Assembly: GCF_000190435.1 (NCBI RefSeq)
Contig: NC_015152.1
Span: 2,300,458 to 2,364,457 of the forward strand
Reading direction: 5' to 3'
From: Sphaerochaeta globosa str. Buddy
Lineage (GTDB): Bacteria; Spirochaetota; Spirochaetia; Sphaerochaetales; Sphaerochaetaceae
DNA: 64,000 nucleotides
In this document: piece by piece, positions 39,826 to 53,456 of the stretch
Layout: every line of letters begins with the position of its first letter
Numbering within the stretch: position 1 is the stretch's first letter
Notes under the pieces: model-generated
The model's database searches: none
What the model saw: the letters and a program-made list of their open reading frames with translations, nothing else
What the model was told of the DNA's origin: nothing
Translations under genes and position numbers: made by a program

Positions 39826-40788
39826 TCAGGATGGCCAACGACCGTAGATTGCATGACCGCACGTACTGCATTTGCCTGCGAGCAAGGCCTTGTCACAATG
39901 AATCGGGCTATAGCGTCTGTCCGATACCAGCAGGGTATGACACTGTGGGCAATAGGTGGCCTGTTTCTGTTCGGAATTGCCGGCATACACATAAGGAATC
40001 CCCGAACAAGAGAGCATCGAAACCATCCCCGCAAGATAGGATTCGCTTGTTGCACTGTCGGTACACAGGTATCGGGGGAAGTAGCGACTCAGGTGCCAGA
40101 CCTGCACCTTGCGCTTGGCAAGCTGATCGGACAGCCCGAGCATCTGAGCCTTGTCATGCTGCCCTTGCATAACCATGGTGGTAACTTCCACGTGCAAAAA
40201 CTTGGCTACAAGGTACTCGATCGCATCCAAAACAGGCTTGGCGCTGCCTTTGCAGAGTCGACGGTAAAAAGCTTCATCACCTTTGAGGTCGATGTTGTAG
40301 GCATCGATATGATCAGATATCCTTGCCAGGGCTTGCTCGCTGAAGGTTCCATTGGTCACCATAATGGTGGCAAGACCTTTCTGTTTTGCCAGCTTTGCAA
40401 CCTCGATCATATAGTCCTGCCATACCAACGGTTCGCTATAGGTGAAGCTGATCGAGGGGCATTTGCGTTCCAAGGCAAGACCGACCAAGTCCGAGGCTTC
40501 AAAGGTCTCGGCCTGTTGGCTCTGCACGTACTCATGCTGACTGATGGTATAATTCTGACAGAACTCGCAGCCAAGGTTGCACCCAAACATCGCCAGTGAC
40601 AGGGTCTTGCTGCCGGGAAGGAAGTGATACAGCGGTTTCTTCTCAACCGGGTCCACGGCTAAGGCGACAAGCTGGCCATACCCTTTAGTAACCAACCTGC
40701 CCCCCTCTACCGCCCTGACCGAACAGATGCCGCTCTGTCCTTCTATAAGGGAACATCGATGATAGCAAAAGTCACAACGTAGGCTCAC
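39826..40788 (-). CDS. amrS: AmmeMemoRadiSam system radical SAM enzyme
   Basis: Radical SAM protein of about 320 residues. The [4Fe-4S]/SAM motif is GCNLGCEFCQN (C-x3-C-x2-C). Further cysteines occur at the N-terminus (RCDFCYHRC) and the C-terminus (CPQCH, CSTCG), the latter pair resembling a zinc ribbon. It belongs to the family linked with pyruvate-formate-lyase-activating enzymes and found with AMMECR1 and Memo. The reaction is not established. GTG 40788 with GGAGG upstream is preferred; it overlaps amrA by 17 bases. Confidence 0.9.
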   Translation of the reverse strand: MSLRCDFCYHRCSLIEGQSGICSVRAVEGGRLVTKGYGQLVALAVDPVEKKPLYHFLPGSKTLSLAMFGCNLGCEFCQNYTISQHEYVQSQQAETFEASDLVGLALERKCPSISFTYSEPLVWQDYMIEVAKLAKQKGLATIMVTNGTFSEQALARISDHIDAYNIDLKGDEAFYRRLCKGSAKPVLDAIEYLVAKFLHVEVTTMVMQGQHDKAQMLGLSDQLAKRKVQVWHLSRYFPRYLCTDSATSESYLAGMVSMLSCSGIPYVYAGNSEQKQATYCPQCHTLLVSDRRYSPIHCDKALLAGKCSTCGHAIYGRWPS

Positions 40789-41332
40789 CGAACACCTCCG
40801 CCTGGAATACCTCAAAGTGGCACGCTGCATCCTGATAGGCATTCGGCCAGAGACCTGCCTTGGTGGAGAGGTTGCTCAAGAGGGTCGGTAAATCCCACCC
40901 CTGTTCGGTCGCCACTTGCGGAAGGAACACGGAACGGTGATAACCGTGAGTCAACAGCACCCCGTCCCTTCCAAGGCGGATGGCAGACCAATCATCAATA
41001 CTTTGCATGCTGCTCAGTAGCGAGATATCAATACACAGCGAAGCAAGCTCATCCTTGGCAACCGGATGGAAGCGGGGATCACTGAATGCAGCCTGGAGAG
41101 CCAGGGAAGGCACTTCCTGATAGAGAGGGCCTCTACCCCATAAATTGCCGATGCATCCCCTCAATGCCCCACCTTTTGTCTTCAGGGTCACAAACAAACC
41201 CATTTCAAGCGTATAGGGTATTCGGTTTTCGTCCTTCAGCCTATCGGCAAGCGGTGTCGCTTCACTCAGTAATGCACTTTGGATTGCCTCGCGGGCGAGT
41301 TCAAGCAGTGTTTTCTGCACCATGCTTTCCAT
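40772..41332 (-). CDS. amrA: AmmeMemoRadiSam system protein A (AMMECR1 domain)
   Basis: AMMECR1-domain protein of 186 residues. The family hallmark is GALRGCIGNLWGRGPLYQEV (L-R-G-C-I-G), the conserved core of human AMMECR1, followed by FSDPRFHPVAKDEL and a late FLPQVATEQGW. The biochemical function is unknown; the conserved Cys may be catalytic or a modification site. GGAGG precedes ATG 41332. It lies between amrB and amrS and is tightly linked to both. Confidence 0.93.
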   Translation of the reverse strand: MESMVQKTLLELAREAIQSALLSEATPLADRLKDENRIPYTLEMGLFVTLKTKGGALRGCIGNLWGRGPLYQEVPSLALQAAFSDPRFHPVAKDELASLCIDISLLSSMQSIDDWSAIRLGRDGVLLTHGYHRSVFLPQVATEQGWDLPTLLSNLSTKAGLWPNAYQDAACHFEVFQAEVFGEPTL

Positions 41333-41335
41333 GCA

Positions 41336-42184
41336 TCACCTCCACAAAATCGTCGAATAGGCGACAAAATTGGCATCCGGCGAAGAACTTATATCCAAGG
41401 ATGTGTAGTAATCGGCAACCCACCCCCGGCTCTGGTTGTGATGTGCGATATAGCTGACCACCATAGCGGGAGCATAACCGCATACGGTGCTTCTTTTTGA
41501 AGAGCAAAAGGCAAAAGCCTCTTCGATCCGTCCTTCGCAGAGCAGGTGGGAAAGGGCCAGGTCATCTTCCCTGACCTTCAAGGGAGCCCCGCTTTGGTAG
41601 GGGGTATAGCCGAAGCGCGGTCCATAATGGGTGAAATCACTACTGGCAATAAGGGCAGTCCTGCCAGCTTGTATCTCTTGCTCTCCCAGTTCGGCAACCA
41701 GTGCATCTGCGATGGTCTTCACCGCTTGCGGCTGGGAGAAGTGGCTGACCAAGGCCAAGGTGACCGTAGGCGGCCGAGAAAGACTGGCAATATAGGGGAG
41801 GACCATCTCCAAGGCGTGTTCACTCTGGATTGCCGAGAAATACTTGGCTTGGGCACTACTAAGATTCTGGCTCTCGAGCATTCCCAGCGGTGTCTCAATG
41901 CCATCCAGAGGGGCGCTGACCAAAGCATCCTGGCTTAGGTTTGCATAGTGGCTCGGGGCAAGGACAACCAGACGCTGTACGTTGGAAAGGTCGGCAGCGA
42001 AAAATGGGGCGATGCCTGCCTTGGAGTAGAAAAGTCCTGCATGGGGAAGAACGGCAAATCGATAGGGACAGTGTTGATAGGTGGTATTCTTGAGGACAAC
42101 CTCAATCGATTCGTTGATCAAAGCCCTGAGCGTCTGTTTATCAGCGGGATACCAAGACCCTGCAAAGTGTGCTTTTCGTATCAT
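41336..42184 (-). CDS. amrB: AmmeMemoRadiSam system protein B (Memo family)
   Basis: Memo-family protein of 282 residues, related to class III extradiol dioxygenases and to human MEMO1. The putative metal ligands are His in LPHAGLFYSKAG, His in LAPSHYANL and a His in SSDFTHYGPRFGYTPY. It begins MIRKAHFAGSWYPAD, a conserved start for the family; ATG 42184 has GGAGGAGC upstream. Human MEMO1 has been reported to bind copper or iron, but the bacterial role is undefined. First gene of the trio. Confidence 0.92.
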   Translation of the reverse strand: MIRKAHFAGSWYPADKQTLRALINESIEVVLKNTTYQHCPYRFAVLPHAGLFYSKAGIAPFFAADLSNVQRLVVLAPSHYANLSQDALVSAPLDGIETPLGMLESQNLSSAQAKYFSAIQSEHALEMVLPYIASLSRPPTVTLALVSHFSQPQAVKTIADALVAELGEQEIQAGRTALIASSDFTHYGPRFGYTPYQSGAPLKVREDDLALSHLLCEGRIEEAFAFCSSKRSTVCGYAPAMVVSYIAHHNQSRGWVADYYTSLDISSSPDANFVAYSTILWR

Positions 42185-42265
42185 TGTAGTCGGCTCCTCC
42201 AATACCCACCTCCTATCATAGTCCACCCATTCTAAAATGCAAGGTTGTCGACCACCCAAGAAAAG

Positions 42266-42347
42266 AGGCAACCTGCCTGATCGCGTGACCTATCAGACAA
42301 GTTGCCAAACGTGGAGGTAAATACAGGAAACAAAAAGGAGAATCAGG
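42266..42347 (-). repeat. Dispersed terminator-like repeat, copy 1
   Basis: Minus strand: TCCTGATTCTCC (42347-42336), then GGCAACTTGT (42305-42296) pairing with GCAGGTTGCC (42275-42266) around an inner stem, then a T-rich tract. The second copy is at 51696-51758. The TGA stop codon of the GH3 gene falls inside TCCTGATTCTCC. Confidence 0.65.
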
Positions 42348-44700
42348 ACAGAGAAACTATCGAGGAAGAGGAAAGACAGCGCCAGGAATTGGAAAGCACT
42401 TTGTCCTCCCCAAGAATTGAGAGCTCGTTCGTAAATACAATATCGTCACAACTTTTACCAACAAAGAGTTCATAGCTTCCGCTTTCAAGCACTCGTTCCA
42501 TCCGCTCTCCGATAAACGAGAACAATTCTGCAGGCAGGGAGAACACCACTTTCTTCTTCTCCCCCGGTTTGAGACTCACTCGTGCAAACGCCTTCAATTC
42601 CTTTACCGGACGGACGAGTGAAGCAACCTTGTCGTGGATGTAAAGCTCAACCACTTCATCACCTGCAACAGTACCGCTGTTCTGCACCTGCAGACTAATC
42701 TTGAATTCACCAGTATTGGTAATCTGGCTTTGTTCAACCTGAAAGTCCGACCAAGTAAAGCTGGTATAGGACAGTCCGTGTCCGAAGGGATACAGCGTTC
42801 CAAACTGCTTTTGGACAGGTAGGCCTCCAGCCTTCTTGGTATGGTTGTAGAAATACGGCATCGAGCCTACCGATTTGGGGAAGGAAAGCGGTGTTTTTCC
42901 GCTGGGATTATTCAAACCGACCAACGTTCTGGCTATCGCCTCACCCCCTCCCTCTCCTGGAAGCCAGGTGCAGAGAATGGCACGTGCATCGGTCACCGCT
43001 TTGTCCAAGGTATAGGGTCTTCCGCTGACAAGGACGACCACTACGGGTTTTCCCGTTTGCAGAACCTCTTGCATCAACTGTTCCTGCACCCCCGGAAGAG
43101 TGAAACTTGCGGCATCAGAGCCCTCACCCACTGTTCCTTGGCCAAACAAACCAGCCAGATCGCCGACTACAAGAACGGTAACATCGGCCTTGCGGCTTGC
43201 CTCACAGGCCAGTTTAATCCTGCTGACATCGCTGCTCAGTTCATGAACCTGCGTCCCCTGCCCTTCCTGGACATCGCCGGGGAAAAATACTGCGCGTTCA
43301 ACGTTGCTCTCATACAGCATACACCCGGGCTCAAAAAGTACCTGTTCGTTTCCAAGTACGTCCTGCAAGGCTGTCTTTATGGTCTTAGCCAACACAGGAA
43401 CCGTCTCCTCAGGTCCATGGGAACCTTGCAGGTGCACCGGCGGCGCATACCCGCCGAACATTGCATAGGGATGGTCGGCCAAAGCACCGATGAGTGCAAC
43501 CTTCAACCCTTTTTTCAAGGGCAACGTACCATCATTCTTAAGAAGAACCAGCGACTTCTCAGCCACTTCCCTGGCAAGGATGTGGTTCTTTTCCGATCCT
43601 AGGTCTATTGCTTCCTCACGGATATAGGGATTCTCAAACAAGCCCAGGCGCAGCTTCTCTTGCAGTATCTTGAGAACCGACTGGTCCAGGGCTTCATCGG
43701 TCACCAAGCCACGATACAGAGCCTCAATGAGTCCTTCCTTGAAGACAGTGAATCCAGGAAGCTCGATATCCATGCCTGCATTGAACGCCAAAGCGGCGGC
43801 TTCGGCCATATCGTTTGCTACTTGATGGTCATTGACCAGCTGCACAATTGCTTCATAATCGGCCACTATCAGGCCGTCAAAACCCCACTGCTTCTTTAAA
43901 AGGTCGGTGACCAAGCTGTGGTTGCTGGTACAGGGAATGCCATCAATGTCGTGGTAGGCTGGCATGACGGCAGCGGGATGGGCGTTGCGCACAACCATTT
44001 CAAAAGGAAGGGCGAAGGTATTGCGGATCTCCCGCATTCCACAATGGACCGGTGCATGGTTGCGTGCGCCTTCACTGAACGAGTGGCCGACAAAGTGTTT
44101 CAGGGTTGCGAGCGGCGACTGTTTTGCCCCTTGCAGACCCTTCACGTAGCCGATACCCATCACACCGCAAAGATAGGGGTCTTCACCGAAGGTCTCCTCC
44201 AAGCGGCCCCAACGTGCATCGCGGGCAACATCCAGTACCGGAGCAAGTCCCTGATGAATGCCCAAACTCCTGAGCTCATCACCGATGGCCGAGGCCGCCC
44301 GGCCGATCAAGGCAGGGTCCCAAGTAGAGCCATAGTTCAACGCTGAGGGAAAAATCGTAGCACCCTTGACCATCGCCCCGGTCAAGCACTCCTCGTGCAA
44401 CATGGCTGGAATTTTCAGGCGAGTCTCTGTGACCAAATAGTGTTGGAGTTTATTGATGGCTTTGGCTTGCTTATGCGGATCATTGGCCATAGTCCCAAAA
44501 GGCCTGGTAAGCTGGCCGATGCCCTTTCCCAGCACTTCCTGATACAAATTGCCGTTACGATGGTCTTTATGTCCATATTCACGGATAGAAAAAGAACCAT
44601 CCTCCTGTATTTCCAACCAGGCAGACACTAGCTGGGCCACCTTTTCCTCGATGGTCATGCTGTGCAAGAGCTGTTCCGCCCGTTCCCTATTCTGTTGCAT
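42343..44700 (-). CDS. bglX: Glycoside hydrolase family 3 beta-glucosidase-like enzyme
   Basis: GH3 beta-glycosidase of 785 residues without a signal peptide, so it acts on imported sugars in the cytoplasm. The N-terminal barrel has APVLDVARDARWGRLEETFGEDP, LATLKHFVGHS, and GLIVADYEA, which holds the likely nucleophile Asp. The second domain contains VLVVGDLAGLFGQG and GEGGGEAIARTLVG. A fibronectin III-like domain follows (about 640-750). The last 16 residues (SNSWRCLSSSSIVSLS) are low-complexity and look like a tail created by the repeat that supplies the stop codon. It is the last gene of the sugar transport operon. Confidence 0.9.
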   Translation of the reverse strand: MQQNRERAEQLLHSMTIEEKVAQLVSAWLEIQEDGSFSIREYGHKDHRNGNLYQEVLGKGIGQLTRPFGTMANDPHKQAKAINKLQHYLVTETRLKIPAMLHEECLTGAMVKGATIFPSALNYGSTWDPALIGRAASAIGDELRSLGIHQGLAPVLDVARDARWGRLEETFGEDPYLCGVMGIGYVKGLQGAKQSPLATLKHFVGHSFSEGARNHAPVHCGMREIRNTFALPFEMVVRNAHPAAVMPAYHDIDGIPCTSNHSLVTDLLKKQWGFDGLIVADYEAIVQLVNDHQVANDMAEAAALAFNAGMDIELPGFTVFKEGLIEALYRGLVTDEALDQSVLKILQEKLRLGLFENPYIREEAIDLGSEKNHILAREVAEKSLVLLKNDGTLPLKKGLKVALIGALADHPYAMFGGYAPPVHLQGSHGPEETVPVLAKTIKTALQDVLGNEQVLFEPGCMLYESNVERAVFFPGDVQEGQGTQVHELSSDVSRIKLACEASRKADVTVLVVGDLAGLFGQGTVGEGSDAASFTLPGVQEQLMQEVLQTGKPVVVVLVSGRPYTLDKAVTDARAILCTWLPGEGGGEAIARTLVGLNNPSGKTPLSFPKSVGSMPYFYNHTKKAGGLPVQKQFGTLYPFGHGLSYTSFTWSDFQVEQSQITNTGEFKISLQVQNSGTVAGDEVVELYIHDKVASLVRPVKELKAFARVSLKPGEKKKVVFSLPAELFSFIGERMERVLESGSYELFVGKSCDDIVFTNELSILGEDKVLSNSWRCLSSSSIVSLS

Positions 44701-44733: not shown

Positions 44734-45579
44734 CTACTCTTTCAGTGCTCCTAGTGCAACACCAGCAATGATGTATTTGCTGAGCAGGAAGTAGACAATG
44801 AAGAGCGGTAATACCGTAAGGGCCAAGCCCAGATACACCGAACCGTATTCGGTTTTATAAATATCACCACGAAGCAGACTGACCATGATCGGCATGGTGT
44901 ACTTTTCTCTTCGGGTCAGGATAATCGTCGGAATGAACAAGTTGTTCCAGTTTGTGACAAACGTAAAAATTGCTTGTGTTGCCATTGCAGGCTTCATAAT
45001 CGGCAGAATAATGCGGTTGAAAGTGAAAAACTCCCCTGCCCCATCGATACGAGCCGAATTGACAATATCAAGCGACAGCGTCGCCATGAGGTACTGACGC
45101 ATGAAGAAGACCATTGCAGGCGCGGCAATCGAAGGAAGAATCAACGGCCAGAGGCTGTTGACCCAACCAATGCGATACATCATCTGATAAAAACCTACGC
45201 CTGTAATCTGGGCGGGAATCATCATGACGGCTAGAATAAAGGTAAAGAACGGCTGGCGCAGTTTCCAGACATAGGCAACCAGGGCATAGGCAGTCAGGCT
45301 GGAGAAGTAGACGGCGCACAGTGTGGCTCCGCTGCTGACCAGCATTGAGTTCATGAAGCCGACTGCTGCATTGAACGTCTTGCCATTGAGAATCTTCCAG
45401 TTGCTGAGCAGATAGGTGGAAGGAAACAAGGCGACAGAGTCCTGCTGGATCTGATAGGTACTTCTGGTAGCATTCACGAACATGGTCCAGAATGGGAAGA
45501 TGCTCAGAACTGAGAGAAATATACATACGATATAAATAATTGTCTTGGTAATATTGGTTGATGCTTTCAAGCTTTTCAT
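44734..45579 (-). CDS. Sugar ABC transporter permease, MalG type
   Basis: Carbohydrate permease of about 281 residues with six spans. The EAA coupling loop is NSARIDGAGEFFTFNRIILPIMKP; the early loop SIFPFWTMFVNATRS and late SKYIIAGVALGALKE are typical of MalG proteins. ATG 45579 with GGGAGG upstream overlaps the stop of the preceding permease as ATGA. The GH3 gene follows 33 bp downstream. The transported sugar is probably a beta-glucoside or related oligosaccharide (inference from the GH3 partner). Confidence 0.92.
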   Translation of the reverse strand: MKSLKASTNITKTIIYIVCIFLSVLSIFPFWTMFVNATRSTYQIQQDSVALFPSTYLLSNWKILNGKTFNAAVGFMNSMLVSSGATLCAVYFSSLTAYALVAYVWKLRQPFFTFILAVMMIPAQITGVGFYQMMYRIGWVNSLWPLILPSIAAPAMVFFMRQYLMATLSLDIVNSARIDGAGEFFTFNRIILPIMKPAMATQAIFTFVTNWNNLFIPTIILTRREKYTMPIMVSLLRGDIYKTEYGSVYLGLALTVLPLFIVYFLLSKYIIAGVALGALKE

Positions 45580-46538
45580 ACTGATGCCTCCCGCTTCAAG
45601 GCTCGTTTCAAAGCCCGTTCCTGTCTTCGCAATTTTTGCTCGCCTCTGTCGCGCATGAGATAGAACATGGCAATGGAGAGAACGACAATGATCAGGAACA
45701 TCAGCATGCTTGCAGCTGCTGCACGATTGTAGAGATAACTGCCGCTGAATGCTTGGTTGTGGATGAAGAGGTTTGCCGTGAGAGTAGAGTTGTCCGGTCC
45801 TCCCCATAGGTAGAGCTTGGGGATATCGTACATCTGAAGTCCGCCGACCATACTGGTGATCAGGACGTACAGCAGAATGGTTTTCAATCGGGGAAGTGTA
45901 ATCCTGAAGAAAATCTGGGTCGGGGTGGCACCATCCACCTCGGCAGCCTCAAAGAGGGTTGGGTCAATCCCGAGCACTCCTGCAATGAGTACAATCATGG
46001 AGTTTCCATACCACATCCAGAACTGGATAAAGGCAACAACACCTTTGGAGGTCCAAACCTGCATATGGAAATATTTCGGTTCGTCCAGAAATCCGAGCTT
46101 GACCAACAGGTCATTGATCGGACCTATCGGAAAGGCGAACATGGAGTTGAACAAAATGGCAATGGTGGCAGCGGTGATGATGTTGGGCATATAAATCAGC
46201 ACTTTGAACAGGCCTTGTCCCTTGACTTTGAAACGACGGCTGGTGAACCAGGCCGTAAGAAGCAAAGCTAACAAAATTTGGGGAATGAAGTTCATAATCC
46301 AAATGACGAACGTATTCGCTACTGATTTCTTGAATGTATCGTTGCTCAGAATCAATTTGAAGTTCTCAAAGGGATCAGCAAGAATCTTAATGTCTGTCCG
46401 GCCAAGACCTCGTAGGTCGGTGAATCCGATAAAGGTCGTATAGATGATCGGATAAAGCGAGAAAATTAGATAGGCAAGCACAAATGGGATGGAAAAGTAA
46501 TACCCATACTTTGCATAGTTGATGCCTTTCTTGCGCAT
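45576..46538 (-). CDS. Sugar ABC transporter permease, MalF type
   Basis: Second permease of the sugar importer, 320 residues. The N-terminus YGYYFSIPFVLAYLIFSLYPI is the conserved first span of MalF-like permeases, and the coupling loop is FEAAEVDGATPTQIFFRITLPRLK. The C-terminus is strongly basic. It follows the binding-protein gene after a 135-bp gap that contains a stable hairpin. Confidence 0.92.
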   Translation of the reverse strand: MRKKGINYAKYGYYFSIPFVLAYLIFSLYPIIYTTFIGFTDLRGLGRTDIKILADPFENFKLILSNDTFKKSVANTFVIWIMNFIPQILLALLLTAWFTSRRFKVKGQGLFKVLIYMPNIITAATIAILFNSMFAFPIGPINDLLVKLGFLDEPKYFHMQVWTSKGVVAFIQFWMWYGNSMIVLIAGVLGIDPTLFEAAEVDGATPTQIFFRITLPRLKTILLYVLITSMVGGLQMYDIPKLYLWGGPDNSTLTANLFIHNQAFSGSYLYNRAAAASMLMFLIIVVLSIAMFYLMRDRGEQKLRRQERALKRALKREASV

Positions 46539-46673: not shown

Positions 46674-48026
46674 TTACAGGGCGCTGATAGCGAGGTTGTC
46701 GGAAACCAGCTTCTTGAACTCAGCAATTGCTTCAGAGCGAGTCTTGTTTCCTGCAGCGTAGGAACGAACCTGATCACGCCAGTACTGGTTGATGGTTTCA
46801 TCATACTGGGTCTTGTTCTTACCGGTAGCAAAAGCGCCGGCGGGTACGAATACGTCAAACATATTCTGACCACCGAGGAATGCTACGGCTCCGTCACTCT
46901 TGCTCATGACAGTACCGGAAGCAACGGTATCCTTGGTTCCGCCGGGCCCGTTGAGGGTGCCGTTGGCCCACAGATACTGAAGACCGGTCTCGGAGGTGTC
47001 GAGGGTGATCCATTCGATGATCTTTCCAACTGCTTCCTTAACAGGGCTGTTGTTGTTTGCAATAACCCACGTGCCGCCCCAGAAGAATCCTACGGGAGGT
47101 TCGCACACGGCCCAGTCACCAAAGGTGCCTTCGCCGGGCTTGGTTCCACCGCTGTTGCCAGCCATGACGTAGTTGATGAGCCATGCGGGACCGAAGAAAC
47201 CGAACACCTTCTTGGCACCGGCATCTTTCATGTCGGCAAACCAACCATCTTCCCAGTCACGGGTCTGGTTGCTGTATCCGTTGTCAACAATCATCTTTGC
47301 GATGTCAAGGAAATCCTCACGGGTCTTGTCGATGAAGAGCTTGCCGTCGATAATCCATCCCTTCGGGGAGGAGCCTTCGATGGCGTGCCAGATGTCTCCG
47401 TCACCGCTCATGATTGCATAGCCTTTCTTGTTCAAGTCGGCTGCAGCCTGGAAGAACTTCTCCCAACCCGGCCCTATCTTGGTCTTGATTACTGCAGGAT
47501 CATCGGTTCCCCAAGTAGCCTTGGCAAGTGAACGGCGATAAATGAAAGCGCCGCCGGTTGCCTGATAGCCCAAGCCAACCAGTTCACCCTTGCTGTTGGA
47601 TCCGATATCAACGGTATACGGAGCGATATCGGCATCCTTGAGCTTCTTGTCTACATCAATGCCCAAGGACTTGTAGGGAGCTGCGTATTGAGCGGCATCA
47701 CCCTTGGTGTACTTCAGAACGAATGCTGCCTCTGCACAGTAGAGGTCGGGAGCATTGTCTCCACCAGATGCCAAAGCCTGGTCAAGAGCCGGCTGATAGG
47801 CACCGTCGGTGGTGGCGACGATTGTGGTGTTGATTTCATAATCGAAATCAGGATTGAGAGCCTTGAATTTCTCGAGCATCTTGGGGACTTCATCGGTGAA
47901 GGTCCAAAGATTGATGACCTTTCTAGCAGGGGCCTTTGCGGCTTCACTCTGGCCGGCGGCGAACAGAGAGAGACTCATGCAGGCGACCAGCAGCAAACTG
48001 ACGACGATACGCATGTTCCGTTTCAT
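46674..48026 (-). CDS. Sugar ABC transporter substrate-binding protein (MalE-like)
   Basis: Exported binding protein of 450 residues (SBP_bac_1). The signal peptide is MKRNMRIVVSLLLVACMSLS followed by LFAAGQSEA; the Cys in LVACMS could be a weak lipobox, but the position within the hydrophobic core favours simple cleavage near FAAG. The mature part starts with INLWTFTDEVPKMLEKFKALNPDF, the usual beta-strand and helix of sugar-binding proteins, and has GTWVIANNN near residue 320. AAGGAGG precedes ATG. First gene of the sugar operon and probably under the two-component system just upstream. Confidence 0.92.
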   Translation of the reverse strand: MKRNMRIVVSLLLVACMSLSLFAAGQSEAAKAPARKVINLWTFTDEVPKMLEKFKALNPDFDYEINTTIVATTDGAYQPALDQALASGGDNAPDLYCAEAAFVLKYTKGDAAQYAAPYKSLGIDVDKKLKDADIAPYTVDIGSNSKGELVGLGYQATGGAFIYRRSLAKATWGTDDPAVIKTKIGPGWEKFFQAAADLNKKGYAIMSGDGDIWHAIEGSSPKGWIIDGKLFIDKTREDFLDIAKMIVDNGYSNQTRDWEDGWFADMKDAGAKKVFGFFGPAWLINYVMAGNSGGTKPGEGTFGDWAVCEPPVGFFWGGTWVIANNNSPVKEAVGKIIEWITLDTSETGLQYLWANGTLNGPGGTKDTVASGTVMSKSDGAVAFLGGQNMFDVFVPAGAFATGKNKTQYDETINQYWRDQVRSYAAGNKTRSEAIAEFKKLVSDNLAISAL

Positions 48027-48047
48027 ACAGATTCCTCCTTACATTGT

Positions 48048-48204
48048 ATATGTCCAAGACATATGAACGATTCCGATGTAGGTTACCCCGCTTTCGTACA
48101 ACGCTTGTACTGAACAGAGCTTCCCACAACCATCATACTAGAAGAGGTTTTGCGAGAATGACACTAGGTGTTTGTCTTGACTTAGGCTAGGACATTTGTC
48201 CTAG
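48048..48204 (-). promoter_or_regulatory. Dyad-rich control region of the sugar operon
   Basis: Two perfect inverted repeats lie between the response-regulator gene and the binding-protein gene: ATATGTC-CAA-GACATAT (48048-48064) and CTAGGACA-TT-TGTCCTAG (48187-48204). Both share GACA/TGTC half-sites. They are candidates for NarL-type regulator binding; the second could also be part of a terminator of the regulator gene. Confidence 0.5.
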
Positions 48205-48210
48205 GCTGAC

Positions 48211-48867
48211 TCAACGTTCATTGCTTTTCACCCATTGGATTGCAAACCTACGCAACGAGCCAGCGTCGCCGATGGACAACTTGTGGCGGATATTATCACG
48301 GTATACATTGATTGTCTTGACCGATAGATTGAGGTTTTGGGCAATCTCGGAAACGCCAAAACCCTGCCCCAACAAACGCAGGACTTCCATCTCCCTGATG
48401 CTGAGCAGTTTGACGGGGTCGATTTCCTCCCGCGAGTCCTGCAGCAACATGGTATCCAGCATCCGCTCGCGCATATCCTTGGATAAGTAGATTTTTCCCT
48501 TGAGCACGTGCTCGATCGCATCGAGCAGTGATGAAGCCGCCTCCTGCTTCATCACATACCCCTTCGCCCCGGCCTTCAGGGCACTGGAGGCATAAATGAT
48601 TTCATCGTACATCGATACTACGATTGAGGAAATCTCCGGGTGTGTGGATTTCAACGTCTTTACCAGCTCCAGTCCGTTCTCCTGTTGCAACGAAATGTCA
48701 ACCAAGGCTACATCCACCGTGATGGATTCCAATAAGGAGAGCGCTTGGGCGATGGTAGTCGCCTCGGCAGTAACCTTGTAACGGCGGACATTCTCAATAA
48801 CGCTGGCCAGACCTTGCCTGAACAGGGGGTGGTCATCCACCAAGAGGAATCGAACGGTATGGTTCAT
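48211..48867 (-). CDS. Response regulator, NarL/LuxR (FixJ-type HTH) family
   Basis: Two-component response regulator of 218 residues. The receiver domain has FLLVDDHPLFRQG, the phospho-acceptor Asp in VALVDISLQ, and the conserved Lys in GAKGYVMKQ. The C-terminal LuxR-type HTH is LSIREMEVLRLLGQGFGVSEIAQNLNLSVKTINVYRDNI. Its ATG overlaps the kinase stop as ATGA, so they are a cognate pair. It lies directly upstream of the sugar ABC operon on the same strand, the probable target. Confidence 0.93.
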   Translation of the reverse strand: MNHTVRFLLVDDHPLFRQGLASVIENVRRYKVTAEATTIAQALSLLESITVDVALVDISLQQENGLELVKTLKSTHPEISSIVVSMYDEIIYASSALKAGAKGYVMKQEAASSLLDAIEHVLKGKIYLSKDMRERMLDTMLLQDSREEIDPVKLLSIREMEVLRLLGQGFGVSEIAQNLNLSVKTINVYRDNIRHKLSIGDAGSLRRFAIQWVKSNER

Positions 48868-51218
48868 ACATGCGTCTCCTTGAGTTGTACGCTCACAATT
48901 GTACCTTCCTCACTGCTTTGTATGGAAAGCTCAGCATCGGCCATGACTGCACGGTTACGCATGATCCTCAAGCCAAGTCCACGCTTTTGCAGTTTCTTGG
49001 GCAATCCGGTTCCGTCATCGCTGACAGTAAGGCACAGCATGGATTCTCCTTGCTTGTTCTCGGATTTGGACGATGAGATTTCTATATGGCTTGCATGGGA
49101 GTGCTTGATGGCATTGGTAAGCGCTTCTTGTACGATACGGAAGAGATTGAGCTCCCGGTTGGCATCCTGGATATGGAACGCGGGATCGACATTCACATCT
49201 ATCTCCACCTCGGCATACCGCAGACTGTCCGCAACCAAGGCCTCAAGCCGCTTCTGGAAACTGGACGGTTCGAGGTCCAGCGGCATCAGGCCGCGGCTTA
49301 TCGTCTTGATTTTGGTTATCGCCTCATTCAAGTGCTTGCTGATGCTCTCCAGCTCTTCGGCAATAGGTCCTTCCTTGTGGTTGAGTCGTTGCCTGGCAGA
49401 AGAAGCGAGCAAGGAAATTCCCAGAAGGTACTGGCACAAGTCGTCGTGCAAGTCCTGGCCGATTCGCTCCATGGTCTTGGTTGAAATCTCCATCACTTCC
49501 TGCTCAAGCTCGGTCCTGCGACGAATCTCTGAGAGCAGGTCCTGGGTCCTGAGTTTCACCTGCTCCTCCAGATTCTTCTCATGCTTGCGGATCTGGGTGA
49601 GCAGCAGCGAGCCTTTGAGCGTACTGGAAACCTGTTCCTGTAGTACATCATAGAGCGCGGGCATTACCATGCCGAAGGGAACAAGGAGATAGCCTAGCGG
49701 CTCATCCATATAGACAAGCGGCAGGAGGACCCAGCGATGCTGCTTCCACTGCTTGCCAAGGACCGGAGGAAGGATTTCCAATGCAGCAAAGGCTGAGTTG
49801 AAGGCTTCCGATTTGTCGAGATCCTGAACGGTCATCATCAGCTGAACCTGTTGGGAACGACCAAGAAACCGTACCAAATACCCCTCATGAATGCCGAACA
49901 AGTGCAAGCTTTGCTTGAGGTTGACCATCAACTGCTCAAGTTCGAAGGTGCCGCTGAGCATTGCACTTACTTTACGCAGGGAATCGAAAGAACATTCCAC
50001 CGCCACACGTTTTGCTGCTTGGAAGCGTCCGATTTTATCTCCAACCAAGGCACGGGCTGCTCCCATGAGCATTGCCTGTGTCTTTGCACTAAGGTCACTT
50101 TCCACATTCGATTTGTACTCAATCACTGAAAGGTACTCGTTCCAACGGTGCATCGAGCCGCTTTCGCTTGCGGTGGCATCCAAGGCCCTGTTGAGTCTGA
50201 AAATCATTTGATGATAGTCGCCCAGACGCATCAAGCGCAGCAGATCCTGAACGGCATTTCGTTCTTGGGCTGTTGCGTAGCTTGGCAGTTCATGCAATCC
50301 CGGAGTATAGCTGACATGGGGATTGCAGCCGCATGATTCCCTGATCACCGCTGTGCAAGCAAGGGTAATGTGCTCCTCTTGCCCGCCTGCCATAATGCGA
50401 TCCAGGACATCGATGGCCATCACTCCCATCTCATAGAGGGGCTGAACGACAGTAGTCAGAGGCGGCAAGGTATACCGGGAAGGATCCAACCCATCAAAGC
50501 CGATGACCGACACCTCGTCGGGCACCCGGATTCCCAATGCTGAAAGTTCTTCCAAGGCTCCTTGTGCCATCCAGTCATTCAGGCAGATAAGGCTGTCGAA
50601 CGGCAAATGGTTGTCCACCAAATACCGAACAGCATCCCTGCCCGCCACATCGGTGAAGGTTCCGGGCCTGATCATGTCTTCATCGATCTCGATGGCATTG
50701 GCTTTAAGCACTTCTTTGCAGGCACTCAGCCTGCGTATCGACTCTTCGTGCGTTTCAGGTCCTTTGAGAATGGCGAATTGGCTGCGGTGGTGCACCCTGA
50801 TCAAATGTTCCACCAAAGAGGCAATACCTTCCTCCCCTTCGACGGTGATATCGCTCATTCCCTGCATTCGCATCCCGATCGACACCCGGGGAAGATCCGA
50901 CCAGGGAGCAAAAAACTTATTCAGGTCAACCGTGGTGAAAAATGTTGCCAGGGACGAGGCAATGATAATCAGTCCGTCTACATTCTGGGACCCAGCCATA
51001 TGATACGCAAGGTTTGAGGAAGCCTCACTGGCAATCGGGGATCCCAGACGCGAACCGATGAAGGAGATGGTACCCAGATTGCGCTTCTTGGCTTCCTGCT
51101 CCAGGGCATGCCACAGCGTGGACTGATACTCATCGTCCAGGCTGGCAGTAAAAATTCCGATACAACGATGCTTAAGCGGCAAAAGAGGCTCCTTACCTGA
51201 TGGCTTTTCTTTCATCAT
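48864..51218 (-). CDS. Cytoplasmic sensor histidine kinase with LacI-type sugar-binding domain
   Basis: A 784-residue kinase with no signal peptide or membrane span. Residues about 17-305 form a LacI-like periplasmic-binding-protein fold (CIGIFTASLDDEYQSTLWHAL, VDGLIIIASS, DSLICLNDWMAQGALEELSALGIRVPDEVSVIGFDG) ending in RESCGCNP, but lack the LacI HTH. A GAF-like region (about 400-540) and a coiled coil (LEEQVKLRTQDLLSEIRRR) follow. The HisKA_3 dimerisation domain carries the phospho-His in GQDLHDDLCQYL, and the ATPase domain has NAIKHSHA, DDGTGLP and GLGLRIMRNR. It probably senses a cytoplasmic sugar and signals to the adjacent regulator. Confidence 0.9.
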   Translation of the reverse strand: MMKEKPSGKEPLLPLKHRCIGIFTASLDDEYQSTLWHALEQEAKKRNLGTISFIGSRLGSPIASEASSNLAYHMAGSQNVDGLIIIASSLATFFTTVDLNKFFAPWSDLPRVSIGMRMQGMSDITVEGEEGIASLVEHLIRVHHRSQFAILKGPETHEESIRRLSACKEVLKANAIEIDEDMIRPGTFTDVAGRDAVRYLVDNHLPFDSLICLNDWMAQGALEELSALGIRVPDEVSVIGFDGLDPSRYTLPPLTTVVQPLYEMGVMAIDVLDRIMAGGQEEHITLACTAVIRESCGCNPHVSYTPGLHELPSYATAQERNAVQDLLRLMRLGDYHQMIFRLNRALDATASESGSMHRWNEYLSVIEYKSNVESDLSAKTQAMLMGAARALVGDKIGRFQAAKRVAVECSFDSLRKVSAMLSGTFELEQLMVNLKQSLHLFGIHEGYLVRFLGRSQQVQLMMTVQDLDKSEAFNSAFAALEILPPVLGKQWKQHRWVLLPLVYMDEPLGYLLVPFGMVMPALYDVLQEQVSSTLKGSLLLTQIRKHEKNLEEQVKLRTQDLLSEIRRRTELEQEVMEISTKTMERIGQDLHDDLCQYLLGISLLASSARQRLNHKEGPIAEELESISKHLNEAITKIKTISRGLMPLDLEPSSFQKRLEALVADSLRYAEVEIDVNVDPAFHIQDANRELNLFRIVQEALTNAIKHSHASHIEISSSKSENKQGESMLCLTVSDDGTGLPKKLQKRGLGLRIMRNRAVMADAELSIQSSEEGTIVSVQLKETHV

Positions 51219-51272
51219 ACTGTATGGAACAAAGATTGCAAGGATAGTGTTGTCGCTGGAACAAAGCTAAAG

Positions 51273-51629
51273 TTATTGGTGTTTCTTGCCGGTAATCATA
51301 TCATAGCTAAGGGTGAGGGATGCTTTCTGGTCACCTTTGTACAGAACCAAGTGTGATCCTTCAAGCTTGCAGCAGCTCAGAAGCAGTTTCCCGTTGGGAC
51401 CCTTCAAGGAAATACCTTGTATCAGAGACTCAACATCCTCACTACTTTTACCCACTCGTTTGCCGGTAAACGGGCAATATATTGGGTGAATGTGGACGGA
51501 AGAGAACACCGAATCATCGTTCTCCAGTGATATCGTGAGGCGCATGTCCATGTGGTAGGAATAGGCATATACAGAGAGGTTGTGCTTGGCATCCACTGCC
51601 AGCTCAAGCACAGGTGTGTTTTCGTCCAT
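51273..51629 (-). CDS. Hypothetical protein with consensus promoter
   Basis: I do not recognise this 118-residue protein. It appears beta-rich and soluble, with HIHPIYCPFTGKRVGKSSED in the middle and a paired Cys-Cys in LLLSCCKLEG. There is no signal peptide or known motif; IYCPFTGKR is a possible single-Cys metal or redox site. Its promoter matches consensus almost perfectly, which argues for a real and highly transcribed gene. No ribosome site precedes ATG 51629. It lies between the histidine kinase and the initiator tRNA gene. Confidence 0.68.
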   Translation of the reverse strand: MDENTPVLELAVDAKHNLSVYAYSYHMDMRLTISLENDDSVFSSVHIHPIYCPFTGKRVGKSSEDVESLIQGISLKGPNGKLLLSCCKLEGSHLVLYKGDQKASLTLSYDMITGKKHQ

Positions 51630-51637
51630 AATCTGAT

Positions 51638-51666
51638 ATTATATCGAAATAGTTGGGGAGTGTCAA
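51638..51666 (-). promoter_or_regulatory. Consensus sigma-70 promoter of the hypothetical gene
   Basis: On the minus strand TTGACA (51666-51661) and TATAAT (51643-51638) are both perfect and 17 bp apart. ATG follows after eight bases, leaving a leader of zero to two bases. Confidence 0.8.
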
Positions 51667-51695
51667 AGAGGGGGACCCCCTTATAAAAAAAGGAA

Positions 51696-51758
51696 GGCAA
51701 CCCGCCATGTGACCATTGTCACCTTAACAAGTTGCCCAAAAGCTTGGGAGAATCAGGA
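51696..51758 (-). repeat. Dispersed terminator-like repeat, copy 2
   Basis: Minus strand: TCCTGATTCTCC (51758-51747), then GGCAACTTGT pairing with GCGGGTTGCC around an inner GTGAC/GTCAC stem (51736-51696), then TTCC and seven T. It lies downstream of tRNA-fMet and probably terminates its transcript. Confidence 0.7.
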
Positions 51759-51816
51759 ATCACCGTCCTGCTGTGTACCTTTGTACATTCAACAGTCCAT
51801 TCATCAGCCAACTATT

Positions 51817-51889
<73 letters not shown>

Positions 51890-52100
51890 TCGAATTTCTT
51901 ACCAACTATAGGAGAAATGGAAAATCTTGTCAACTAGAACTAGAAATTAATCCTAGGTATTTCCTATGATTATGCTTTATAATGAAATAGCTTTCAGTAA
52001 ATTTTGTAAAATACGAGGTCTTTTGCTTTTAGGCAGGTTCTGGTATCATCATTGATTAGCATCACAGTTTCCCAGGAGTTGGGAAAGCAAGGAGCTGGAT

Positions 52101-53456
52101 ACGAGCAAGAAGGTAATTATCCTGGGAGCAGGTAGACGCGGGTTGGGTTTGGCAAAGCAGCTGATCGTTGATGGAAAGGATGTGGTTATCATCGACAGTT
52201 CCCATGAGCGAATTGAAAGCGCTGTTTCCAAACAAGATTGTCTTGGCATACTAGGCAACGGCACCGATATTGCAAAACTGATGGAAGCCGACGTGGAACA
52301 CGCTGAGGCTTTCATTGCAGTAACCAACAGCGACGAGATCAACCTGGTCTCCTGCGGTCTGGTCTCCTCGACCTATCCCCATGTAAAAACAGTTGCAGCT
52401 ATCCGCTCACTGATTTATACCGGCGTTGACGGTCTGAAAGAAGGGCTGTTGGGTATCGATTACATCGTCAACCCCAATGCAGAAACTGCCAAATCCATCT
52501 ACAATACTATCGAACAGGGAGTCAACGGCAATGTATTGGGTTTTACCAATTCCAAACTGCTGCTGTACAACTTCTACATTGAGCCTTTCAGCTCCTATGT
52601 CGGTTCAACCGTCATGGAGATGAGAAACAAGCTGCAAGCTGAATTTGTCATAGCTTCGATTAATCGCAGGGGTTTGGTAATCGTGCCTTCAGGCAATACG
52701 ACCATTCAGGCACAGGACACCCTTTCAATCGTCGCCAACTCGGAAGAGGTCACCGATATCCTTAAAACCGTGGGACAGCTGCAAAAGCGGCCGAGCAACA
52801 TGGTCTTGGTCGGAGCAAGCAAAATAACACGGGCCCTGCTTAACCGCATGAGTCCCGCCATGCGCTCCAAAGTGGCTGTAGTCGACCAGGATGCAGAAGT
52901 CTGCAGAGCTTTCAGCGAGCGTTTTCGTGAGATACTGGTCATCAAGGCCGACATTACCGATGAGGATATTATGGCTGAGGAGCAGTTAGGCTCCTACGAC
53001 CTGCTTGTGGCACTAACCGACAATGATGAATTAAACATAATCACAGCCAGTTATGCAAAACGCATAGGGGTGGAACGCTCGATCGCTTTGATCAAGCAAA
53101 ACAACAACTATACACGTATGGCAAGCTACCTCGATATCGACGTGGTCATTTCCACCACTGATACCACGGTGGAGTCATTGCTTCGCTATCTCAGGGGTAC
53201 CAATGTCACCAGCATCCATTCTTTGTTCAACGGTCAGTTGGAAGTGTATGAGTTTGTCATCCATGCAGAGAACATGGTCTGCAACAAGCAGTTGAAGGAT
53301 ATCAATATGCGTAAGAAGGCCATTGTTGCCGGTGTTACCGACCACCAAGGGAAAAGCATTATCCCAACCGGATTAACCACCCTCAAGGAAGGGGACACCG
53401 CCTTGGTGGCAGTCATGCGGGACTCCTCCGACTTCATACAAAAGCTCTTCGGGTAA
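52101..53456 (+). CDS. trkA: Trk potassium uptake regulator TrkA, apparent ACG start
   Basis: Cytoplasmic NAD(H)-binding gating subunit of a Trk/Ktr potassium channel, about 451 residues with two RCK_N/RCK_C repeats. The first Rossmann motif is KKVIILGAGRRGLGLAKQL, and the second begins NMVLVGASKITRALLNRM. No ATG, GTG or TTG lies in frame upstream of the first Rossmann glycines. AAGGAG ends six bases before ACG 52101, which would give the family's normal start (M)SKKVIILGAG. TTG 52143 is open but would delete the glycine motif. CTG 52095 is a further candidate. The gene is six bases upstream of trkH. Confidence 0.85.
   Translation, partial: TSKKVIILGAGRRGLGLAKQLIVDGKDVVIIDSSHERIESAVSKQDCLGILGNGTDIAKLMEADVEHAEAFIAVTNSDEINLVSCGLVSSTYPHVKTVAAIRSLIYTGVDGLKEGLLGIDYIVNPNAETAKSIYNTIEQGVNGNVLGFTNSKLLLYNFYIEPFSSYVGSTVMEMRNKLQAEFVIASINRRGLVIVPSGNTTIQAQDTLSIVANSEEVTDILKTVGQLQKRPSNMVLVGASKITRALLNRMSPAMRSKVAVVDQDAEVCRAFSERFREILVIKADITDEDIMAEEQLGSYDLLVALTDNDELNIITASYAKRIGVERSIALIKQNNNYTRMASYLDIDVVISTTDTTVESLLRYLRGTNVTSIHSLFNGQLEVYEFVIHAENMVCNKQLKDINMRKKAIVAGVTDHQGKSIIPTGLTTLKEGDTALVAVMRDSSDFIQKLFG

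Follow-up and report, generated by a model that had tools for sequence, protein, structure and literature searches.

A soluble histidine kinase with a LacI-type domain as a candidate sensor of imported xylo-oligosaccharides in Sphaerochaeta globosa

Escherichia coli XylR, which joins a LacI-type domain to an AraC helix-turn-helix (HTH), senses D-xylose, and the sensor kinases NarX, NarQ, UhpB and DesK are membrane proteins. Sugar-responsive two-component systems are, in most descriptions, monitors of the cell's surroundings. The hemicellulose systems, namely the hybrids of Bacteroides and Cellvibrio and XuaDSR of R. cellulolyticum, are described as sensors of extracellular or periplasmic glycans (PMC10766802, PMC12175519). 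A review from 2022 names a periplasmic-binding-protein-like LacI domain among the notable putative sensory domains of cyclic di-GMP (c-di-GMP) proteins (PMC8846402). Histidine kinases with a LacI domain were not found as a topic in the open-licence PMC literature by title or start of abstract, which is weak evidence of absence, and 'Peripla_BP_3' together with 'histidine kinase' gave no match in that literature. Here we describe such a kinase, encoded on the minus strand at 48864-51218 of the window, by which we mean the whole stretch of 64,000 nucleotides analysed (Sphaerochaeta globosa str. Buddy, NC_015152.1, positions 2,300,458 to 2,364,457). Together with its response regulator it probably forms a soluble, cytoplasmic two-component system for the use of xylo-oligosaccharides, which would activate the adjoining operon of an ATP-binding cassette (ABC) importer and a GH3 glycosidase; the kinase would then read a sugar that has already been imported. 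What is new here is a conserved palindrome, a beta-xyloside as the likelier ligand, and a clade of HTH-less sensor domains with a CxC motif and multiple outputs.

A soluble kinase with a LacI-type input domain

The open reading frame (ORF) of 784 residues reported by an earlier note on this DNA is real and lies on the minus strand, which that note had left unstated; many stops occur on the plus strand across the same interval. Its start is most likely the TTG at 51182, twelve codons inside the ORF (772 residues), which is favoured because of an AAGGAG box and because its position matches the ATG of more distant orthologues; TTG is also found at this position in two close relatives, and ATG there or nearby in the more distant ones. 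Upstream of the kinase lies a small ORF of 118 residues (51273-51629), with homologues in 4 of the 13 orthologous loci tested, preceded by a perfect sigma-70 consensus (12 of 12 positions, 51638-51666), which would be compatible with a sensor that is expressed constantly.

Residues 17-298 (50325-51170, minus strand) form a ligand-binding domain of the LacI/PurR type, as indicated by Pfam and by the predicted structure. Peripla_BP_3 matches residues 136-296 (E 2.6e-26) and, like the two kinase domains described below, exceeds its curated Pfam cut-off, the gathering score. The AlphaFold model of the kinase, built with 30 aligned relatives as input, has a mean predicted local distance difference test (pLDDT) score of 82; in it, residues 17-298 adopt the LacI/PurR fold, with a VIA-align Z of 28.6 to PurR and a Foldseek E of about 1e-18 to ancestral LacI. 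The structure prediction that the earlier note had proposed for the N-terminal region thus returned a fold of the periplasmic-binding-protein (PBP) type; membrane helices and a non-PBP fold, the outcomes named there as refuting, were looked for and neither was found. The pocket residues R163, F188, N214, D242 and H157 are invariant in 30 relatives, and three of them (R163, N214, D242) presumably correspond to the LacI ligand contacts that we take to be R197, N246 and D274. At the exit of the domain stands the motif C296-G297-C298 (50325-50333, minus strand), both cysteines of which are invariant in the 30-row alignment.

The LacI HTH (PF00356) was not found by Pfam in the kinase ORF, and has 20 matches elsewhere in the genome; nor does the ORF carry a C-terminal AraC HTH of the kind found in XylR. 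In several orthologues (L052, L054-L058, L061, L062, L068, L069) an in-frame stop lies about 11-18 residues before the start of the conserved domain, so that neither an HTH nor a membrane anchor would fit. The maximal 19-residue hydropathy mean is 1.57, whereas the two neighbouring permeases reach 2.4-2.6; values above 1.6 (up to 1.95) occur in five of the 30 aligned relatives, within residues 495-514, which are modelled as two beta strands. Neither a transmembrane segment nor an extracytoplasmic sensor was found in the kinase by hydropathy and the structure model, and the earlier description of a soluble protein with an HTH-less LacI fold therefore stands. A kinase without a membrane segment must sense in the cytoplasm.

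In the model, a helical segment comes after the sensor domain, and then a GAF-like domain (about residues 427-545; 49584-49940, minus strand), which runs into a long coiled coil; a single long helix (residues 521-613) enters the phosphoacceptor region. This middle part, folded alone, reached a pLDDT of 89. The linker has no match in the Pfam scan of the kinase ORF, and its Foldseek matches to GAF-containing proteins are moderate (E 1e-5 to 1e-3, with low TM-scores). The HisKA_3 dimerisation and phosphoacceptor domain comprises residues 584-648 (49275-49469, minus strand; Pfam E 2.7e-10), with H591 in the sequence HDDLCQ, and the HATPase_c catalytic domain residues 689-782 (48873-49154, minus strand; Pfam E 7.9e-14). 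Since H591, D592, Q596, N702, D734, G736, G738 and G749 are invariant in the 30 rows, the kinase appears to be active, and D592-x-x-x-Q596 fits what we take to be the HisKA_3 phosphatase motif. With the phosphoacceptor His, the N box and the G boxes conserved and both domains above cut-off, the fusion to a NarX-like kinase is confirmed.

The operon and the palindrome before the importer

By 4 bp the kinase gene overlaps that of its cognate NarL/FixJ-type response regulator (48211-48867), which consists of a receiver and a LuxR/GerE HTH. There follow, all on the minus strand, a solute-binding protein with a signal peptide as judged by eye (46674-48026), two permeases with BPD_transp_1 (45576-46538 and 44734-45807, the latter probably starting at the internal ATG at 45579 in our reading) and a GH3 glycosidase of the beta-xylosidase/alpha-L-arabinosidase type (42343-44700), which has no signal peptide to the eye and looks cytoplasmic. 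The regulator, importer and GH3 enzyme that had been claimed downstream of the kinase are thus all present, in the order kinase, regulator, binding protein, permease, permease, GH3. Directly downstream of the GH3 gene lie AmmeMemoRadiSam genes (39826-42271), encoding a radical SAM enzyme and a Memo-like protein.

Orthologues were compared at 24 kinase loci from 23 genomes of the host's order. In 23 of these loci the kinase is succeeded by the regulator and the binding protein, the contig of the 24th ending inside the kinase, and the GH3 gene is present, complete or truncated by the contig boundary, in 20, the other four contigs stopping short of it; the order of the operon is kept wherever the contigs reach. 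Kinase matches at E<=1e-40 occur in 28 of the 139 genomes of the order, including some sister-clade proteins and partial matches. The wider survey took an even sample of the phylum Spirochaetota (392 genomes), to which whole-genome sampling was confined. In it, full-length relatives with E below 1e-220 were found in three genomes outside the order (G489, G479, G485), all of which retain the regulator and a GH3 of 49% identity; the GH3 of a further genome (G384) is 47% identical. The transporters of the remote kinase loci are different or strongly diverged, and the sensor-regulator pair therefore stays with the glycosidase even where the transporter is not conserved. A search of a plasmid collection at E<=1e-20 gave 11 records, all of which cover less than 80% of the query; the best match was an EAL protein of Deinococcus that is similar in its N-terminal part. 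One remote locus also carries, on the minus strand, an ORF of 844 residues that matches ankyrin-type repeat models only, all below cut-off (L122:2201-4735).

Directly past the stop codon of the regulator, and before the gene of the binding protein, lies an operator-like palindrome, TAGGACATTTGTCCTA (48188-48203), with the core TAGGAYANNNRTCCTA, which is the probable binding site of the cognate regulator. The core is present in 20/20 species in the aligned gaps between the regulator and binding-protein genes, and the mean pairwise identity of the 16-mer over these 20 gaps is 0.88, against 0.27-0.64 at later offsets. The copy in the window is the only perfect one in the genome; the genome scan gave no second perfect site, and sites with two mismatches at three further places, whereas a reversed control gave five per strand. 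The stricter pattern TAGGAYANNTRTCCTA was found in 20 of 138 genomes, once each, 18 of these copies lying in this gap and the other two (G079, G111) outside it. The short form TAGG-N8-CCTA, an 8-base match expected by chance about once per 65,000 bases, is exact in seven of the eight remote loci (L122, L127, L074, L125, L075, L180, L181) and has one mismatch in the eighth (L126). In both kinase clades these remote sites sit between the regulator or upstream gene and the importer or xylosidase genes (L180 upstream of L123, L181 upstream of L124). A second, degenerate copy may lie at 48165-48178 (TAGGCATTTGCCTA in one relative), as read from the gap alignment; this weaker site and a downstream -10-like TAGTAT would suggest a promoter of the activator type. 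As for autoregulation of the kinase, no second site at <=3 mismatches was found in the window.

The likely sugar and the proposed circuit

The earlier note had proposed that the kinase detects an imported sugar and induces its own uptake system, with beta-glucosides as the candidate ligands. The anatomy of the kinase, the conserved gene order and the conserved operator-like palindrome upstream of the importer all argue for control of its own importer, but the type of the GH3 enzyme and the context of the sister clade favour a beta-xyloside. The GH3 protein scores 802 bits against the beta-xylosidase/alpha-L-arabinosidase model, compared with 487 for the next model and 456 for BglX, and among PDB chains it is nearest to beta-xylosidases, at 664 bits, the next kind reaching 376. 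Remote GH3 enzymes are likewise closest to the beta-xylosidase type, which the remote kinase orthologues retain despite a differing transporter. GH52 is a family of beta-xylosidases, and the sister kinase clade adjoins GH52 in four genomes (G077, G332, G393, G082), accompanied by GH43 in G082, by a Xyl3A-like GH3 in G077 and by an alpha-xylosidase in G393. G077 also has, next to its sister kinase, an importer of the window's own type (63-73% identity). Because of the GH3 type and the position of the sister clade beside GH52 xylosidases, beta-xylosides are likelier ligands than beta-glucosides, and our best guess is a xylo-oligosaccharide or a product of it, such as xylose. In one remote locus (L075:7849-10043) the GH52 gene is split over two overlapping ORFs, by a frameshift or an assembly error.

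In the circuit that we propose, basal expression of the importer would supply the first signal by carrying a beta-xyloside into the cell. The beta-xyloside, or xylose or arabinose freed from it by the GH3 enzyme, would close the LacI-type domain of the kinase dimer, and the movement would be relayed through the CxC exit, the helical and GAF-like linker and the coiled coil to HisKA_3, where the balance of kinase and phosphatase activity at H591 would shift. The phosphorylated NarL-type regulator would then bind the 16-bp palindrome located between the regulator and binding-protein genes, and activate the importer-GH3 operon, so that importer and glycosidase both increase. Observed directly are the domains and fold of the kinase, its catalytic motifs, the lack of an HTH and of membrane helices, and the conservation of operon and palindrome; the identity of the ligand, the direction of regulation, the phosphotransfer and the palindrome as the regulator's site are inferred.

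Several findings weigh against this proposal. The reversed control of the strict palindrome gave 14 matches in 12 of the 138 genomes, little below the 20 genomes of the palindrome itself, so that the signal of the palindrome lies in its location and conservation and not in its number. No short-form site was found before the likely target genes in L045, L077, L078, L079, L128, L129 and L131, which include the Sphaerochaeta-like sister kinases (L045, L077-L079) and a Treponema-like pair (L128, L129), and loci with and without the site are not cleanly told apart by the recognition helix of their regulators. The 802 bits of the GH3 enzyme are below the curated cut-off of that model, 1050 bits. The only clear PDB relative of the binding protein is annotated as cellobiose-binding (8bfy, E 2.2e-11), which keeps cello-oligosaccharides among the candidates.

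This last point leads to the best-placed alternative, the same system with a beta-glucoside (cello-oligosaccharide) as the signal. GH3 enzymes are often active on beta-glucosides, and CelR bound to cellobiose (5ysz) is one of the many LacI structures that the sensor domain resembles; the GH3 enzyme, on the other hand, is far closer to beta-xylosidases than to beta-glucosidases, and xylosidases of GH52 and GH43 stand next to the sister clade, which in one case has the same importer, so we consider a beta-glucoside signal unlikely. A rather improbable reading is that the kinase binds no sugar itself and that its LacI-type domain reads another state, such as a phosphorylated carrier or, through CxC, redox, the link with sugar being indirect. 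CcpA, which reads HPr-Ser46-P, is among the fold matches, and the invariant CxC marks the whole HTH-less clade; yet the positions of the LacI ligand contacts are retained, and the gene context follows one kind of sugar. It seems just as improbable that the pair does not activate the importer, either because the phosphorylated regulator represses or because the palindrome serves another regulator or acts in RNA: the direction of regulation cannot be read from sequence and a local LacI repressor could equally bind the palindrome, but the short form of the site accompanies the kinase-regulator pair over several families and in both kinase clades, and the operon holds no regulator gene other than the kinase's partner. 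A terminator, which was considered separately, is not favoured, since the palindrome is not followed by a T run in the alignment, and the terminator scan of 47900-52200 gave no candidate there.

HTH-less sensor domains and comparison with known systems

The view that a repressor module was rewired to phosphorylation holds in that a LacI fold is attached to a kinase, but not in the sense of a recent excision from the repressors of this genome. The CxC motif at the end of the domain is absent from all 13 HTH repressors of the genome with a full-length domain match and present in 4/4 large HTH-less fusions, a count that leaves out two more HTH proteins and one other, only partly matched. CGC was found in 33 of the 34 rows scanned, the remaining one (L103) having CSC, although this tally is not unbiased because the rows were collected by similarity to this kinase family. 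In a tree of 41 domains, 27 HTH-less CxC rows and 13 HTH rows are separated by a branch with 100/99 support, with the caveat that a single genome supplied the repressors, that the HTH-less rows had been collected for their similarity to this kinase, and that the XylR-like row forms a long branch. On account of this split we reject the idea that the domain was captured recently from a local repressor. The outputs of the HTH-less CxC clade are HisKA_3, HATPase_c with a weak HisKA (L109), GGDEF, MCPsignal (L116), GerE and AraC. Given this separate branch with its many outputs, the kinase represents one line within an older clade of HTH-less sensors.

Other members and relatives were seen along the way, long ORFs with this LacI-type domain being frequent in the host's order. 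The host genome encodes a second LacI-domain HisKA_3 kinase (L045:5562-8095, at about 195.6-198.1 kb), the partner regulator of which is receiver-only, without the LuxR HTH, as in L077 and L079, and full-length in L078. Two ORFs (L116:1381-3795 and L117:1411-3792) fuse the same domain to an MCP signalling domain and are perhaps cytoplasmic sugar chemoreceptors. Another, of 1064 residues (L046:4878-8072), combines the LacI-type domain with a GAF-like part, a weak HisKA without a Pfam HATPase match and an AraC HTH. A XylR-like protein of the same genome (L168:1159-2295), with a LacI-type domain and an AraC-like end, has neither an HTH of the LacI type nor CxC, and adjoins genes that we take to be transaldolase-like and aldo/keto-reductase-like.

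As a tentative generalisation, for which we would claim less than even chances, the HTH-less CxC LacI-type domain may serve spirochaetes generally as a cytoplasmic input module for sugar sensing, with at least six outputs, CxC being the coupling element; this would be, for example, a metal or disulfide clasp between subunits. If so, imported sugars would steer phosphorylation, c-di-GMP, chemotaxis and transcription through one allosteric device, and the wider clade already suggests a single input module for the last three. The kinase uses the best-studied allosteric fold of gene regulation, and a switch of the lac-repressor kind can therefore be compared directly with the control of a kinase. 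The candidate operator, the likely class of ligand and the self-contained set of genes offer a way to test how a LacI-type domain drives a kinase.

Taken together, the locus resembles several described systems and differs from each. Like this kinase, E. coli XylR is a cytoplasmic LacI-type sensor without the LacI HTH that governs xylose genes, but it binds DNA itself through its AraC HTH, whereas here a HisKA_3 kinase and a separate regulator are used; the XylR-like domain of the host genome lacks CxC and stands apart in the tree. The kinases of the NarX, NarQ, UhpB and DesK type, with their NarL-type regulators, share the kinase core and the type of regulator, but are membrane proteins, in contrast to the soluble sugar-binding input found here. 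The Bacteroides and Cellvibrio hybrids and XuaDSR, as described, similarly have a kinase that adjoins or controls an importer or enzymes for xylan sugars, and are membrane-borne, unlike the present kinase (PMC10766802, PMC12175519). Finally, LacI-type domains are also known from GGDEF/EAL proteins, and the HTH-less CxC clade described here includes GGDEF proteins; the difference is that the output here is a kinase, for which a class of ligand and a target site are proposed.

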